Positions 2,661 to 62,800 of a stretch of 64,000 nucleotides of DNA are shown here, piece by piece. Every line of letters begins with the position of its first letter. Position 1 is the first letter of the stretch. This DNA comes from Tetradesmus obliquus. Its lineage: Eukaryota; Chlorophyta; Chlorophyceae; Sphaeropleales; Scenedesmaceae. The stretch covers positions 5,890,001 to 5,954,000 of the forward strand of contig CP126193.1 in assembly GCA_030272155.1 (NCBI GenBank), written 5' to 3'. The notes beneath the pieces were generated by a model that did not search any database, was not told the origin of the DNA, and worked only from the letters and a program-made list of their open reading frames with translations. Made by a program: the position numbers and the translations under genes.

Positions 2661-5600
2661 ATGAGCGACGACTTTGAGAAAGCTGTGCTGATCAACTTCA
2701 ACTATGGTGGAAACATCAACCCTCAGCTCAAGGTAGTGCATCCAACTGAGCCGCTGCACCAGCAGGAGCAGCAACAGCAGTGCGGCAGCAGCAGATGCTG
2801 CCAGGGCAGGCACTCACCCTCTCTGCTGCTCGCCTGTCTGCAGGAGCAAGCAGCAGCATACATTGCCAGCATCAAGCAGTCGTCAGACTGCTGGAAGCTG
2901 TGTTGCGAGCGCTTCCCAGCTACCCTGTACCCGGAGGTCAAGTTCTGGTGCCTGCAGTCGCTGCATGAGGTAATGCCCGGCCCCAGCAGCAGCAGCAGCA
3001 GCAGCCAAACAGTGCTACTAGTCACTGGAAGCAGCAGGATACGGCAGCAGATGGCTTTCATGGATGGGTTGCAATGAGACAGATTGCAGCACCTGCATCC
3101 CCAGCGCAACGTATCGTCATTGCATTGACTCCTGGCGTGTGTGTGTTGTGCCGCAGGTCATCTGTGCATGCTACCTGCAGCTGGATGAAGGGTCACGCCA
3201 GATGGTGAGGCCTAGCGTGCAGGTGTTGCAGCTGTGAGAGCAGCAGTAGCAGAAGCTACGGAGCCGCAGCAGCCTCAGCGGCAGCAGCAGCAGCAGCCTT
3301 AGCGGCAGCAGCAGCAGCCTAAGCAGAAGCCTCCGCAGCAGTTGCGCCAGCAGCAGCAACGTCTGTGACAGGAGTGCAGTATGACACTGGGTGCAGCACT
3401 CGCGCGGATCACGGTGCACTACAGCATCTGTAGCACCTGCAGGTGCTTGAGCAGCAGCAGCAACAGCAGCAAGAGGGCAGCCGCCGCTGGAGAGTGCTGC
3501 TGCTGACCCTATGTTCCGGCTGTTGCTATCGTTACAGCAGCGGCAGGAACAGAGGCTCAGCAGCAGCGCTCATGCAGCAGGTGCTATGCTTGTGTTTGTC
3601 TGCCTGGGCAATGCTAGGGCTTGCAGTGTATGGCAAGCACACAACTTGACTGGCACGCAATGCACATTGGCAGCTAGCAAAGAACATTGGGATGCAGCAC
3701 CAGCAGCTCCAGGAGCAGCAGCCAGCAGGTGCAACTTCACAGCAGCAACAGCGTGCTGCATCCCCAGCCGCAACCAACCCCACAGCCACCCGCAGTGCGC
3801 AGCCACCCCTGCATCTATCCTCTGCACTACTGCCTCCCCATCACTCCAGCCACCCTCTCCACCAGCTACCCACTTGCCTGCCTGCCTGCCTGCCTGCTCA
3901 CCTGCTGTCTTCTTCTCTTTCCTTCCTTCCCCACTACTGCTGCCTGTCCGTCGCTTGCCAATACCAGATCACGGGCGCGCTGCTGACAACGCCTTCCCCT
4001 GCTCACCTGCTGCTGTCTTTTCCCCTGCTGTCTGCTTGCGCCTCTCCTTCAAACAGATCAAGGGCGCGCTGCTGACCTGGCTGCTACCAACCCCCTCCCC
4101 TTCTCACCTGCCGCTGCTCACCTACAAAAAACTTCTTCTTTTCTGCTGTGTTGCGCTGCTCCCCCAAACAGATCAAGGGCGCGCTGCTGACCTGGCTGCA
4201 GCGCGACTGCACCTCAGAGTCCCCAGCACTGCCCCCTTTCCTGCGCAACAAGCTGGCGCAGGCTATCGTGGCTGTGGTCAAGCGCGAGTACCCTGCGCTG
4301 TGGCCGAGCTTCTTCCGGGAGCTTGTGGCGGCTGCGGGCAGCGGGCCGGGCCTGGCGGACATGTTTGGGCGCATCATGGTGGCGGTGGACGAGGACGTCA
4401 TCAGCCTGGACATCCCCAGGTGAGTGAAACTATCTTTTGCCACCGTCACTTTTCTTTGTTTCTCCAGTTGTCTGTTTAAAATCATGCATTTGTCCCTCCA
4501 GTTGGTTGTACTGCATCTTTTTACCTCTGGTGAATCTTGCGCGCCCCGGCTGCATCGCCTGACCTAAGTGTATCGTGCACTGCCGGGCTGTACCGCGTAC
4601 TGCACCGCAGGTCTGCCGAGGAGACCAAGCTCAGCATGCACCTCAAGGACAGCATGCGCGAGCAGTGCATCGCTGAGGTGGCAGCGGCCTGGTTCAACCT
4701 CACGCAGCTCTACAAGGCCAGCAGGCCAGAGCTGGCAGCGTTTGTGCTGGCCAGCGCGGCGCGCTACGTGCACTGGATGGACATCGGGCTGGTGGCAAAT
4801 GACAGGTAAGGGGGCGGGAGGTTTGCTTTCTGTACTGCTACAGCAGTGTGCTGTGGCATCTGCCTTTTGTACATGCATGTGCGTGCACTGGATGGACATC
4901 GGGCTGGTGGCGAATGACAGGTGCGGCAGCTGGTGAAAAAACATGTGCACTGCTAAAGCAGTGTGGCTGTGGCTGATGTGTTTGCTGTGTGTATGTGCAC
5001 TGGATGGACAGCGGGCTGGTGGCAAAAAATGATAGGTGCGGCCGGCGGCTAGTCATTGGCTACACTGCTGCAGCATTGCCCACCCCATGCACCGCTGGAC
5101 TTATCGCGCTACATAATTTTGAACACGCATGTCTTCTTTGTGTCACAAATTGCTGCTGCCGCAGGTTCATTCCGCTGCTGGGCGAGCTCATGGACCACGC
5201 CAACCCCGCGCTGCGCGGCGCCGCCACCGACGTGCTTGCCGAGGTTGTTTCAAAGCGCATGGAGCCCACCGCCAAGATCGCCCTGGTGCAGCAGCTGAAG
5301 GTAGTGGACGCCTGCGAGCGCCTCAGCAGCAACCTGATTGCGGCAGCCGGCGCGAATAAGGCGGCGGCTGCAGCAGCACTGGCAGTGGGAGGATGTGGCG
5401 AGAAGGCTAAGCAGGGCGGTGGTGCAGCTGGGGGTGGTGGTGCTGGTGTGTCTGCTGCTGCGCTTGACCAGGATGATGAGCTGCTGGGGAAGTATGCGAA
5501 GCTGCTGGCAACGCTGGCGAGTGAGGTCATGGATGCACTCAAGCGCGTGGAGAACGGTGAGGGTAGAAGAGGCTGGCGCTGCTGGGGTGTTGGGGTGCTG

Positions 5601-59870: not shown

Positions 59871-62800
59871 ATGAACTTCGCTAGCAGGACGCCCGGCAAC
59901 ACCAGCAGCAGCAGCAGCAGCAGCAGCAGCAGCAGCATGCAGTGCGCAACAGCAGTGCTGCAGCAGCGTACAGGCGTGCTGCTACAGCCAAGCACACGCA
60001 CATTCCGAGCAGCAGCAGCTGCATGTAGAGCTCACAGACACCAGGCATGCTCGCATGCACAGCAGCAGCAGCACCATGTAGCTCCCCAGTGGCACTGCGC
60101 AGCACGCAGAAACGCAATGTCCAGCCAGCTGGCTTGTGGTTCATCAAGGTTTAGCAGGTGCTGCAGCGCACTAAACCCCTCTTCCGGGTCAACCAGCCCC
60201 GGCAGCATATCATGGCTATGTGGGGTGCAGGCTTGGCCCAGCCAAGCAGCACATAGCCAGGCCAGCAGCAGCAGCAACAGCAGCAGCAACAGCAACGGCA
60301 GCACCAACGGCAACGGTGCTGCTGGCAGCAACGGATCGGCAGACCTTGATGCATCAGCTGAGACGCCCAGCAGCATCAGCACAGACCGCGACTTTGCTGT
60401 CCTGCAAGCAGCTGACCTTGCGGGCATGCAGTTTGATGCGATCGTGGTGCTGGCTGGTGGGCTGCTGCCAGATGCTGGGCTGCCTGTGTGGGCGGCACGG
60501 CGGCTGGATGTAGCGCGGGACCTGCATATGCTATTGGACAGGCAGCCGCCTATCTTATGTTCAGGTGAGGTGGCATGGGTAATTGTTGCTGTTAAAATCG
60601 CTGTTTGAATGTGGCGCGGGGCCTGCATCTGCTGCTGAGAGCTACTAGGCAGGCAGCCGCCCATCCTGTGCTCAGGTGCGTTGAGGTTGGCTGCAATGGT
60701 CGTACTGTGTAGCCCTTTCACTTGTGGAAGGTGGTGATAGGAGCATGTGTAGAGTTGAAGCAGTGTGATGTGGTTTGAATAGGCAAAATGATGCATACTG
60801 CAGCCGCGTGGGTGCTGGCAGCAGAACACAGTCGCAGGTGTTGCCACTGTGGGCAGTACTGTGCACCAGGCACAACTACCCCACAAATGTCCTCACATGC
60901 GCATCATCAATTACAGCAGAACACAGTTGTTGGGCATGTTGCTGCTGCGTATTTTGTGATGACGTCATTCAACTTTCTTTGCTGTGTGCAGGTGGTGGCA
61001 CGCCGCACAAGCCAAGCATCATCGGCTCCATTGGGCACGTGCTGCATGAGTGCATAAGTTAATTGACATGCTGTTGCTGCTGCACCTGCTGCATGTTATC
61101 TGCTGTGTGCAGGTGGTGGCACGCCGCACAAGCCCAGCATCATCGGCTCCAATGGGCATGTGCTGCATGAGTCGACTGCTATGGCCACCTACCTCATGGC
61201 AGCTGGAGTGGCACCAGCAGACATCATCAAGGTGCGCTGGCGCTGCGAGTTGTGAACATGCTTGTAAGATACGCTACAAGGAGATATGCTAAGGAACTAT
61301 TACAGTGGGGTTGAACAGAAGCAACTTGGCTTGCCAGCTATTACCTCAATGTGAGCACGCTGCGCTTCCTGTCGAGGTCCGCCCTGCAGGATTCCTGCAA
61401 ACAAACATGTGCCGGCTTACCTGGAGCAACCTCACTGTGCATATGTACTACTTTTCACTTTGTGCTTGCAGGAACTGCCAGTTATGACACTGTCGGCAAC
61501 ACCTACTTTTCTCTGGCCGTCCAAGTGACTGAGTCACTGCAGCTTGATGCTTGCAGGAAAACCTCTCACTTGTAACGGACCTGCTGCTGCTGTGTGCTTG
61601 CAGGAGACTGCCAGTTATGACACTGTCGGCAACACCTACTTTTCTCTGGCCATCCACGCGCTGCCTGCCGCCTGGAGCCGCCTGGCCGTTGTGACCAGCC
61701 ACTTCCACATGCCGCGCAGCAGGGCGCTGTTTGCAGACATCTACCGCCTGGCTGGCAGCAGCATGTTTGGGGACCCACACAGGTGAGTGGGCGGCAACAG
61801 GCAGGGTGCTGCATCTGGGCCATCTTGAATGGAGGAGACTCTGCCACTTGCGGCTCTGCTCAGCTTACAGTGTTGCCATGTAGCGCGGGAATACAGCTTG
61901 CAGATACTGCCATTGATCCGCAGGACGCCTGCTGCCAAGTGTGCCGTGGTGCGAGGCCGCTGACATCACTGCATGGCTTGTGTTTCAGGGAGGCTGCCCT
62001 GGCAACACCGTGCAGCTTTCCTTCATGCAGCTCTAGCCAGAATGCTGGCATCCATGGTAAACAAACGTGTTTTCTCATAACTTCCCCCCCATCAAAAGCA
62101 CTACTGTGGTCACTCCATGTCACAACACCTCAATCAGCGCCCATGCAGCCGACGCCAGCGCCACACCAAATTCCACACGCCGGCATATTGTCAACTGCCA
62201 CTGACATAGTGAACACGAACGGAAACTTCTTCAACGTGCCGCAGGTTCTCCCTCACCTTCCTCTCAGCCAGCGATGAGGGCTGCTTTGACGACCACGTGT
62301 ACAGCGCACGGCTGCAGAAAGAGGCCGGCAGCCTCGCACACTGGCAGGGTGTGGCAGGGGGCCTACGCAGCCTGCCGGAGCTGCATGGCTGGCTGCACAG
62401 CGACCACCTGTGCTATGCGGTGCAGCGCCAGCAGGAGTTTGGGAAGCGCACAATAGAGGTGGGGTTAATCGTTGTCGTTGATGATGTTGCGCTGTTGTGG
62501 TGCATGCAGCACATCTTATTGTTGTGCCATCTATCAGATGGCTGTCGAAGGTGTTGCTTGATGGGTGTGTTGGTGGCAGAAGGTGCTTGCGCACCTGTGC
62601 TATGCGGTGCAACGCCAGCATGAGTTTGGGAAGCGCACGATCAAGGTGGGCTGGTTGGGCTGTTTGTCATTGTCAGTGTGGGTGTAAACGTATCGTGCCT
62701 TGTTGCTGTGCTGTTTAGTGGATTGCCCTTCCGGACAGGCAGCTACAGATATACATGTGTACTGTTTTGTTGATGATGCTTTTGGTGTTGTTGTGCATGC

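Follow-up and report, generated by a model that had tools for sequence, protein, structure and literature searches.

Results

Genes of the window and local copies of their exon edges

The stretch of DNA analyzed here, referred to as the window, comprised 64,000 nt of the green alga Tetradesmus obliquus (contig CP126193.1 of assembly GCA_030272155.1, positions 5,890,001 to 5,954,000), and short direct repeats were found in it that copied the edges of exons into the neighboring introns. The genes for exportin-T (PF19282, 7139–7735), a Der1-like protein (PF04511), a HECT ligase, prefoldin (PF02996) and a DUF218 protein were confirmed by Pfam; the EML-like (PF23409) and MinD-like (weak AAA_31) labels relied on matches below the cut-off and on reading of the translation. 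A thymidylate kinase gene was also present. The copies carried about 60 nt of exon and typically lay ~120 nt off, inside the intron.

The genome containing the window amounted to 104.66 Mb in 17 contigs. The sample consisted of the 64-kb window and 24 further 10-kb loci, 20 taken first and four later, 304 kb in total, all from the assembly of one strain. The window was compared with itself by BLAST (E ≤ 1e-3, word 11) with simple repeats masked, and pairs less than 1 kb apart were counted. The 11-base seed overlooked some old copies; one of them, at locus L029, emerged only when 7-base seeds were used in a cross-comparison. Exons were called by automatic gene models, the gene finder being seeded with the exons of the window. 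A self-trained gene finder was dropped, since it drifted toward CTG/CAG repeats. The automatic models overlooked some edges within arrays, for example in the thymidylate kinase gene. Low-complexity windows were left out of the copy comparisons.

Extent, spacing and orientation of the arrays

The self-comparison of the window yielded 52 direct repeat pairs, which formed 24 arrays, and no inverted pair. In one dinucleotide-shuffled version of the window, a comparison that the preliminary description of this DNA had suggested, self-BLAST detected no pairs. In the whole sample 124 arrays were recorded, with at least one in 22 of the 24 loci, and about one fifth of the called splice edges had a nearby copy. 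The local direct-repeat arrays of the window were thus confirmed as real and genome-wide, and the proposal of a general process that acts in unrelated genes on either strand was borne out. The density in the window (3.75 arrays per 10 kb) was typical when compared with the mean of the first 20 loci (3.7). Near-inverted matches were rare, five in the first 20 loci and none in the four later ones. Copy identity ranged from 70 to 99%.

The smallest spacing was 60–165 bp in 93 of the 124 arrays (85–145 bp in 79), 165–285 bp in 28 and larger in three; in the window it was mostly 81–140 bp, the others lying at 187–259 bp. The preliminary description had reported a cluster at 110–135 bp and had named the lack of a preferred spacing as evidence against itself. 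A preferred scale was indeed present, but the range was broader than claimed. No array had a spacing below 60 bp at the sensitivity of self-BLAST; Tandem Repeats Finder (TRF) does list shorter units, including a 61-bp one. The remainder of the array period after division by three was 0, 1 and 2 in 39, 20 and 39 arrays, respectively. The period did not separate the array classes (median 128 for edge arrays, 122 for intron-only arrays).

Among loci L003–L026 the array density varied from 0 to 12 per 10 kb. An excess of arrays on small contigs (rho −0.54, p = 0.013, 20 loci; one of four correlations tried) was left unused because locus L024, on the longest contig C1, had 12 arrays and did not fit.

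Several details of the preliminary description required revision. Not every array was situated at an exon edge: the repeat at 26526–26682 (period 81) was confined to an intron. The copies were said always to lie on the intron side of their edge. This was mostly so (32 upstream and 11 downstream for acceptors, 31 downstream and 10 upstream for donors), but not always; in a simple tandem duplication this direction follows from geometry. No repeat pair lay within 35.9–51.0 kb or 10.2–14.5 kb, in agreement with the description of the PFDN5 and MinD genes as clean. Intron gain itself was not shown, the copies sitting in already existing introns.

Homology of many copies ends just behind the splice site

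Arrays that spanned an edge were not in excess: 43 of the 81 genic arrays (53%) did so, versus 49% (standard deviation 4.8) upon random placement with the automatic models. Edge specificity became visible in the density profile and in a boundary test. The nearby-copy rate of 36-mers centered 0–48 nt inside the exon was ~15–22%, that of the edge-adjoining 60 nt of intron 7–12%, that of deeper exon 6–16% and that of random places 0–1.4%. It rose again to 10–14% at 72–120 nt into the intron, where the copies themselves lay. The profile alone was indecisive because an approximately twofold excess could also result if the exon half simply decayed more slowly.

In the boundary test the search for copies used exon windows restricted to +15 to +55, the edge itself being uninvolved, and each match was then extended toward the intron. 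Homology ended 1–10 nt beyond the splice site in 24 of 74 copies, 11–20 nt beyond it in 12 and inside the exon in two. Pseudo-edges placed in introns gave no such pile-up (15 outside and 17 inside, 113 copies), and pseudo-edges inside exons gave 2 and 5 (75 copies), compared with 36 and 2 for the real edges (73 copies). In the four later loci all 10 copies ended on the intron side, nine of them within 40 nt. The copies therefore nearly always included the splice site, and many stopped right behind it.

Each copy had been described as exon plus neighboring intron. Stated so generally, this was not supported: among 84 exon-ascertained pairs the intron side was unrelated in 44, which therefore were no full tandem duplicates, and both sides were homologous in 40. 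When the search was performed from the intron side, copies were found at 47 of 380 edges, and 13 of these copies were one-sided. Exon parts identical by 95–99% and joined to unrelated intron occurred at 60980–61172 and 61458–61656 of the window and at L013 3813, L007 1747, L019 8664 and L009 7713.

Splice signals of the copies

The one-sided pairs, alike on the exon side and unrelated on the intron side (class II), were inspected for splice signals. GT was retained in all 14 donor copies that could be placed (of 17 pairs) and AG in 10 of the 12 placeable acceptor copies (of 13 pairs). The identity of class II donors was 0.79–1.00 through +6, fell to 0.50–0.71 at +7 to +9 and was close to chance thereafter. 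The donor score of the copies (6.32) was close to that of the real sites (6.61), random intronic GT scoring ~0. At the other, exon-side end of class II copies no splice signal was enriched (GT or AG in 13 of 30, chance ~0.49). Whole-exon copies existed as well, 29 of 74 copies being called exons themselves.

In the trained site models the acceptors were strongly CTGCAG/G and the donors AG/GTG (the slash marks the splice site), and the introns were rich in CTG/CAG repeats; splice-like motifs were therefore very common. In P0004, a transcript-derived protein of a related alga, the C-terminus left the family exactly at the exon end that bears copies in the genome of the window, as if the intron had been retained.

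Substitution patterns

Pairs in which the copy itself was called a strong exon (29 of 74) were set aside in the rate analyses. Given the mutation spectrum of these introns, no more than 42% of the differences between a constrained exon and a dead copy beside it would be synonymous. Synonymous differences made up 158 of 270 in 45 pairs (bound 0.42, p = 5e-8), an excess that uncalled real exons could inflate in the sampled loci; in the 14 window pairs they made up 52 of 89 (p = 0.001). In nine full-tandem pairs spaced by less than 165 bp the intron tails had diverged by 0.187 per site, so that ~0.09 was expected at the nonsynonymous sites of a neutral copy; the observed 0.038 was well below this value. 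The pN/pS ratio (nonsynonymous to synonymous differences per site) was 0.39 untrimmed and 0.24 once trimmed to the homologous part; between decoys, as the copies may be called, it was 0.39, one family of the 85 having its edge off by one. Changes private to decoys comprised 82 synonymous and 121 nonsynonymous ones (p = 1e-7 against the expectation from site counts).

Architecture of the arrays and exon-limited likeness of paralogs

For the architecture, rows belonging to one array were merged and judged by reading, L004 from the printed sequence. In 23 arrays at least one neighboring pair had 60 nt or more of intron in common; of these arrays, 17 had an outermost copy that shared 33 nt or less. 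Unrelated outermost tails were seen in the thymidylate kinase and exportin-T genes and at L004, L003, L007 and L012–L014. From the inner to the outermost copy the shared intron measured 122 and then 7 nt at exportin-T 4805, and 133, 133 and 11 nt in thymidylate kinase. At L004 the tails of the inner two copies were near-identical across 75 nt, and the outermost copy had an unrelated tail next to an exon part that was identical or one base off.

Comparison of 41 spacers with the ~304 kb revealed only 15–22 nt matches between loci and no shared element. Two spacers searched genome-wide matched their own array only, at the sensitivity of that search. For three of four exons searched genome-wide, the matches among the best candidates were confined to the exon's own locus and the local copies there. 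The fourth belonged to a family with paralogs L028, L029 and L027 on contigs C12 and C13, which by eye we take to be guanylate-cyclase-like. The two C12 paralogs shared a 193-nt match of 98.4% identity that covered one exon and was flanked by unrelated introns; another, upstream match had 78.5%. By eye, the common sequence stopped ~14 nt (−14) and ~9 nt (+9) outside the exon, a pattern that suggests exon-limited gene conversion. In one C12 paralog the intron included a further match (83.9%) to the start of the next exon, and none was found in the intron of the other. At the same exon edge, the C13 paralog had two additional copies.

Arrays and genes of the window

The arrays of the window are collected in Table 1.

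Table 1. Direct-repeat arrays of the window (positions are those of the window).
Position	Strand	Gene	Feature
3965..4199	+		Array, period 89, upstream of called exportin-T exon
4765..5042	+	Exportin-T	Exon end (donor ~4805/4806), copied twice downstream, at +115 and +230; outermost with 7 nt intron in common
5799..6018	+	Exportin-T	Exon start (~5952), one upstream copy at −121
9717..10233	+	Exportin-T	Repeats in 3' part of gene; TRF 61-bp period at 10033–10186
14496..14699	−	Der1-like (PF04511)	Copy just beyond stop, period 129
17780..17950	+		Exon start (~17895), upstream copy at −83, full tandem
18295..18867	+		Array of four high-scoring segment pairs, period 119; gene model weak
19266..19714	+		Exon end (~19304), copies at +140 and +280
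20389..20760	+		Direct repeat at a spacing of 234
25546..25986	+	Thymidylate kinase	Exon start (25924), three upstream copies
26077..26726	+	Thymidylate kinase	Exon end (donor ~26168–26172), copies at +128, +250 and +551 without common intron
26526..26682	+		Intron-only tandem repeat, period 81
29114..29572	−	HECT ligase	Exon start (~29154), three copies at 128, 257 and 404
29696..30379	−	HECT ligase	Exon end (~30334), three copies; neighbors with 5–6 nt intron in common
31082..31259	−	HECT ligase	Exon end and copy 123 bp away
31345..33300	−	HECT ligase	Exon start, ~seven copies, period 259
33534..34335	−	HECT ligase	Exon end (~34240) and dispersed partial copies in intron
35525..35925	−		Array, period 125, ~2.6–3 copies
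51036..51270	+	EML-like (PF23409, below cut-off)	Tandem repeat, period 120
51434..51680	+	EML-like	Exon start (51627), upstream copy at −134
60505..60678	+		Exon end, copy at ~+111
60980..61172	+		Exon start (~61112), copy 121 bp upstream; 69/72 identical, ~12 nt intron in common, unrelated beyond
61458..61656	+	DUF218	Exon start (61604), copy 132 bp upstream; ~14 nt intron in common
62405..62650	+		Exon end (62459), copy 187 bp downstream; ~5 nt intron in common

The thymidylate kinase protein joined from the window exons and its counterpart in Scenedesmus sp. NREL 46B-D3 were 93% identical. The identity of the joined protein to the T. obliquus protein was 86% in the search and 99% across the shared alignment columns; the gap arose because the end of exon 2 is missing from the T. 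obliquus protein. This exon apparently ended at a GC donor (AG/GCAAGC, 25346–25356). The nearest copy of the thymidylate kinase exon start differed from the real exon at seven positions, all synonymous. The outermost copy had lost its AG, had 11 nt of intron in common and carried six synonymous and three nonsynonymous differences.

In the array at 19266–19714 the exon parts were each ~1 base apart, and the outer intron tail was far more diverged than the inner one. The HECT copy at 31082 was unneeded in the protein, since the profile ran from 19 to 97 in 31200–31452 and from 103 to 208 in 30294–30707. A long GTGTGTGTGTGC repeat, ~30 copies of 12 bp, was observed at 51953–52311.

Discussion

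Proposed origin and maintenance of the copies

We tentatively propose, at somewhat less than an even chance, that the copies form exon-anchored micro-arrays, which would arise by short duplications across an edge, grow by unequal exchange and be kept alike in the exon flank and splice consensus by exchange, selection or both. A local duplication, typically of 85–145 bp, across an exon edge would place into the intron a copied half-exon that brings its own splice site. Such a copy would be tolerated because it has no partner splice site and the real edge retains its own intron tail. Unequal exchange via the exon piece would then enlarge the arrays; it would follow that inner copies often share one tail, with the outermost tail usually largely unrelated. 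The architecture described above is the pattern observed; the mechanism is the one that we propose for it.

The exon flank and splice consensus stayed alike as the intron tails drifted past recognition. This may reflect recurrent exchange between the copies and functional exon edges, located on the same chromosome or on another, possibly with direct selection acting on the copies as well. From the data, exchange and direct selection cannot be told apart. Taken together, birth by duplication, tolerated half-exons and enlargement through unequal exchange fit the observations well. The proposal draws on the genome-wide occurrence, the almost exclusively direct orientation and the narrow size range of the arrays, on the endings at the splice signal, the retention of donor and acceptor dinucleotides, the synonymous excess and the unrelated outermost tails, and on the C12 paralogs as an independent case of likeness limited to an exon.

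Several observations weigh against this proposal. Conversion tracts would be expected sometimes to stop inside the exon and almost none did, which favors direct selection; moreover, 57 nt is short for homologous recombination. The acceptor copies were weaker than the real acceptors (score 4.19 versus 5.77). Five of the 23 arrays (19303, the HECT 259-bp array, L017 4523, L014 6847 and L014 2816) had no unrelated outermost tail, L013 4677 was intermediate with 51 nt, and in twelve further families no long tail was common to any neighbors. Class II pairs spaced by less than 165 bp, taken alone, had 32 of 62 synonymous differences (p = 0.047), which is borderline against neutral copies. Private changes in the window decoys, mainly of HECT, were near neutral in a hand tally (20 synonymous to 43 nonsynonymous), as were those of the HECT decoys themselves (11 synonymous, 27 nonsynonymous), and some decoys contained frame-breaking indels, for example the copy at 61472. 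Given the synonymous excess on the one hand and these near-neutral private changes on the other, the constraint on the copies is partial or uneven.

Alternative explanations

As an alternative, the copies may be working alternative or regulatory splice sites, both edges binding the splicing machinery and selection retaining the flank and the consensus; judged from the DNA, this was considered possible but rather unlikely. It would account for the drop of donor identity at the end of the consensus, the complete retention of GT, the near-equal donor strength, the coding-like differences and the near lack of boundaries inside the exon. However, the spacing was not restricted to multiples of three (remainders 39/20/39), so that splicing at a copy would in many cases change the reading frame, and some copies had frame-breaking indels or had lost AG. 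In young pairs such as those of L004, the synonymous sites of the real exon were also near-unchanged next to unrelated tails, which selection on the copies does not explain.

Recent template switching, in which replication or repair would copy an exon flank into the nearby intron with the junction at a splice-like motif by microhomology, was judged unlikely. Pairs of very recent origin whose tails are unrelated (L004, L019 8664, L013 3813 and L007 1747) agree with it, as do the confinement of the two tested spacers to their own array and the junctions, which by eye often fell on TGCAG or GTG motifs. Yet junctions would then be expected inside exons too, where only 2 of 74 were found, and inverted copies would be expected as well, whereas near-inverted matches were rare. 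The synonymous excess also argues against it.

Ordinary neutral tandem duplication was regarded as quite unlikely to be the whole explanation. A random 120-bp unit would usually cross an edge, and its exon half would decay half as fast as the intron half. Consistent with this, edge-spanning arrays were no commoner than under random placement, and the 44-to-40 split together with the fewer intron-side copies (47 of 380 edges) would correspond to an about twofold longer life of the exon half. The pile-up at real splice sites, absent at pseudo-edges, speaks against it, as do the young one-sided pairs, and neutral decay was rejected by the synonymous excess. Plain tandem duplication accounts for only part of the copies.

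It is very doubtful that the loci are mosaics of diverged alleles, in which imprecise recombination would have joined the exon edges of two haplotypes, both formerly real edges. The pairs do resemble orthologous edges in their coding-like differences, their similar splice strength and the restriction of likeness to functional parts. Such an origin, however, requires unalignable introns at a synonymous divergence of ~0.2, and full-tandem tails of similar synonymous divergence did align (0.187); in addition, divergence varied widely between loci and the density would be implausibly high. An assembly artefact or a transposable, introner-like element is hardly credible, since within the assembly sequence the copies were 70–99% identical with unrelated flanks, the 41 spacers gave only 15–22 nt matches between loci, and two of them occurred nowhere else in the genome at the sensitivity of the search.

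Comparison with known systems and biological meaning

Mutually exclusive exons, as in Dscam, are tandem local duplicates of exons with intact splice sites, whereas many of the copies found here were half-exons with one splice site (other-end signal in 13 of 30, chance ~0.49). Introner elements alter the intron content of algae; in contrast to them, the copies had no shared element that could be found, and their spacers were unrelated. In plants, short direct duplications of similar size result from paired nicks or end joining, but these do not predict ends at the splice consensus. We know of no report of such copies at the genome scale with ends at splice consensus, our literature search being not exhaustive, and the same search found no paper on exon-edge copies in Scenedesmaceae.

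In a potato RdRp (RNA-dependent RNA polymerase) gene, a tandem duplication over an intron–exon boundary yielded an intron composed of the exonic part of one copy and the intronic part of the other (PMC4974935). The geometry is the same, but one gene and one event are concerned; here ~1/5 of the called edges were involved, no new intron position was shown and about half of the copies were without an intron part. In Drosophila, novel introns were attributed to sliding or to tandem duplication of coding sequence, near-intron pairs being intronized duplicates (PMC2891723). Local exonic duplication is common to both cases; the copies described here lay within existing introns and bore the existing splice site.

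The arrays offer many natural replicates, of graded ages, of the step demanded by tandem-duplication models of intron change. They may also lead gene annotation in this group astray, as exemplified by the T. obliquus thymidylate kinase protein without the end of exon 2. They also raise the question of splice-site choice, that is, how the real edge is picked when strong copies lie ~120 nt away. If the copies were selected as decoy or alternative sites, for which we see a limited likelihood, the exon flank and the splice consensus would constitute a module evolving independently of the surrounding intron.

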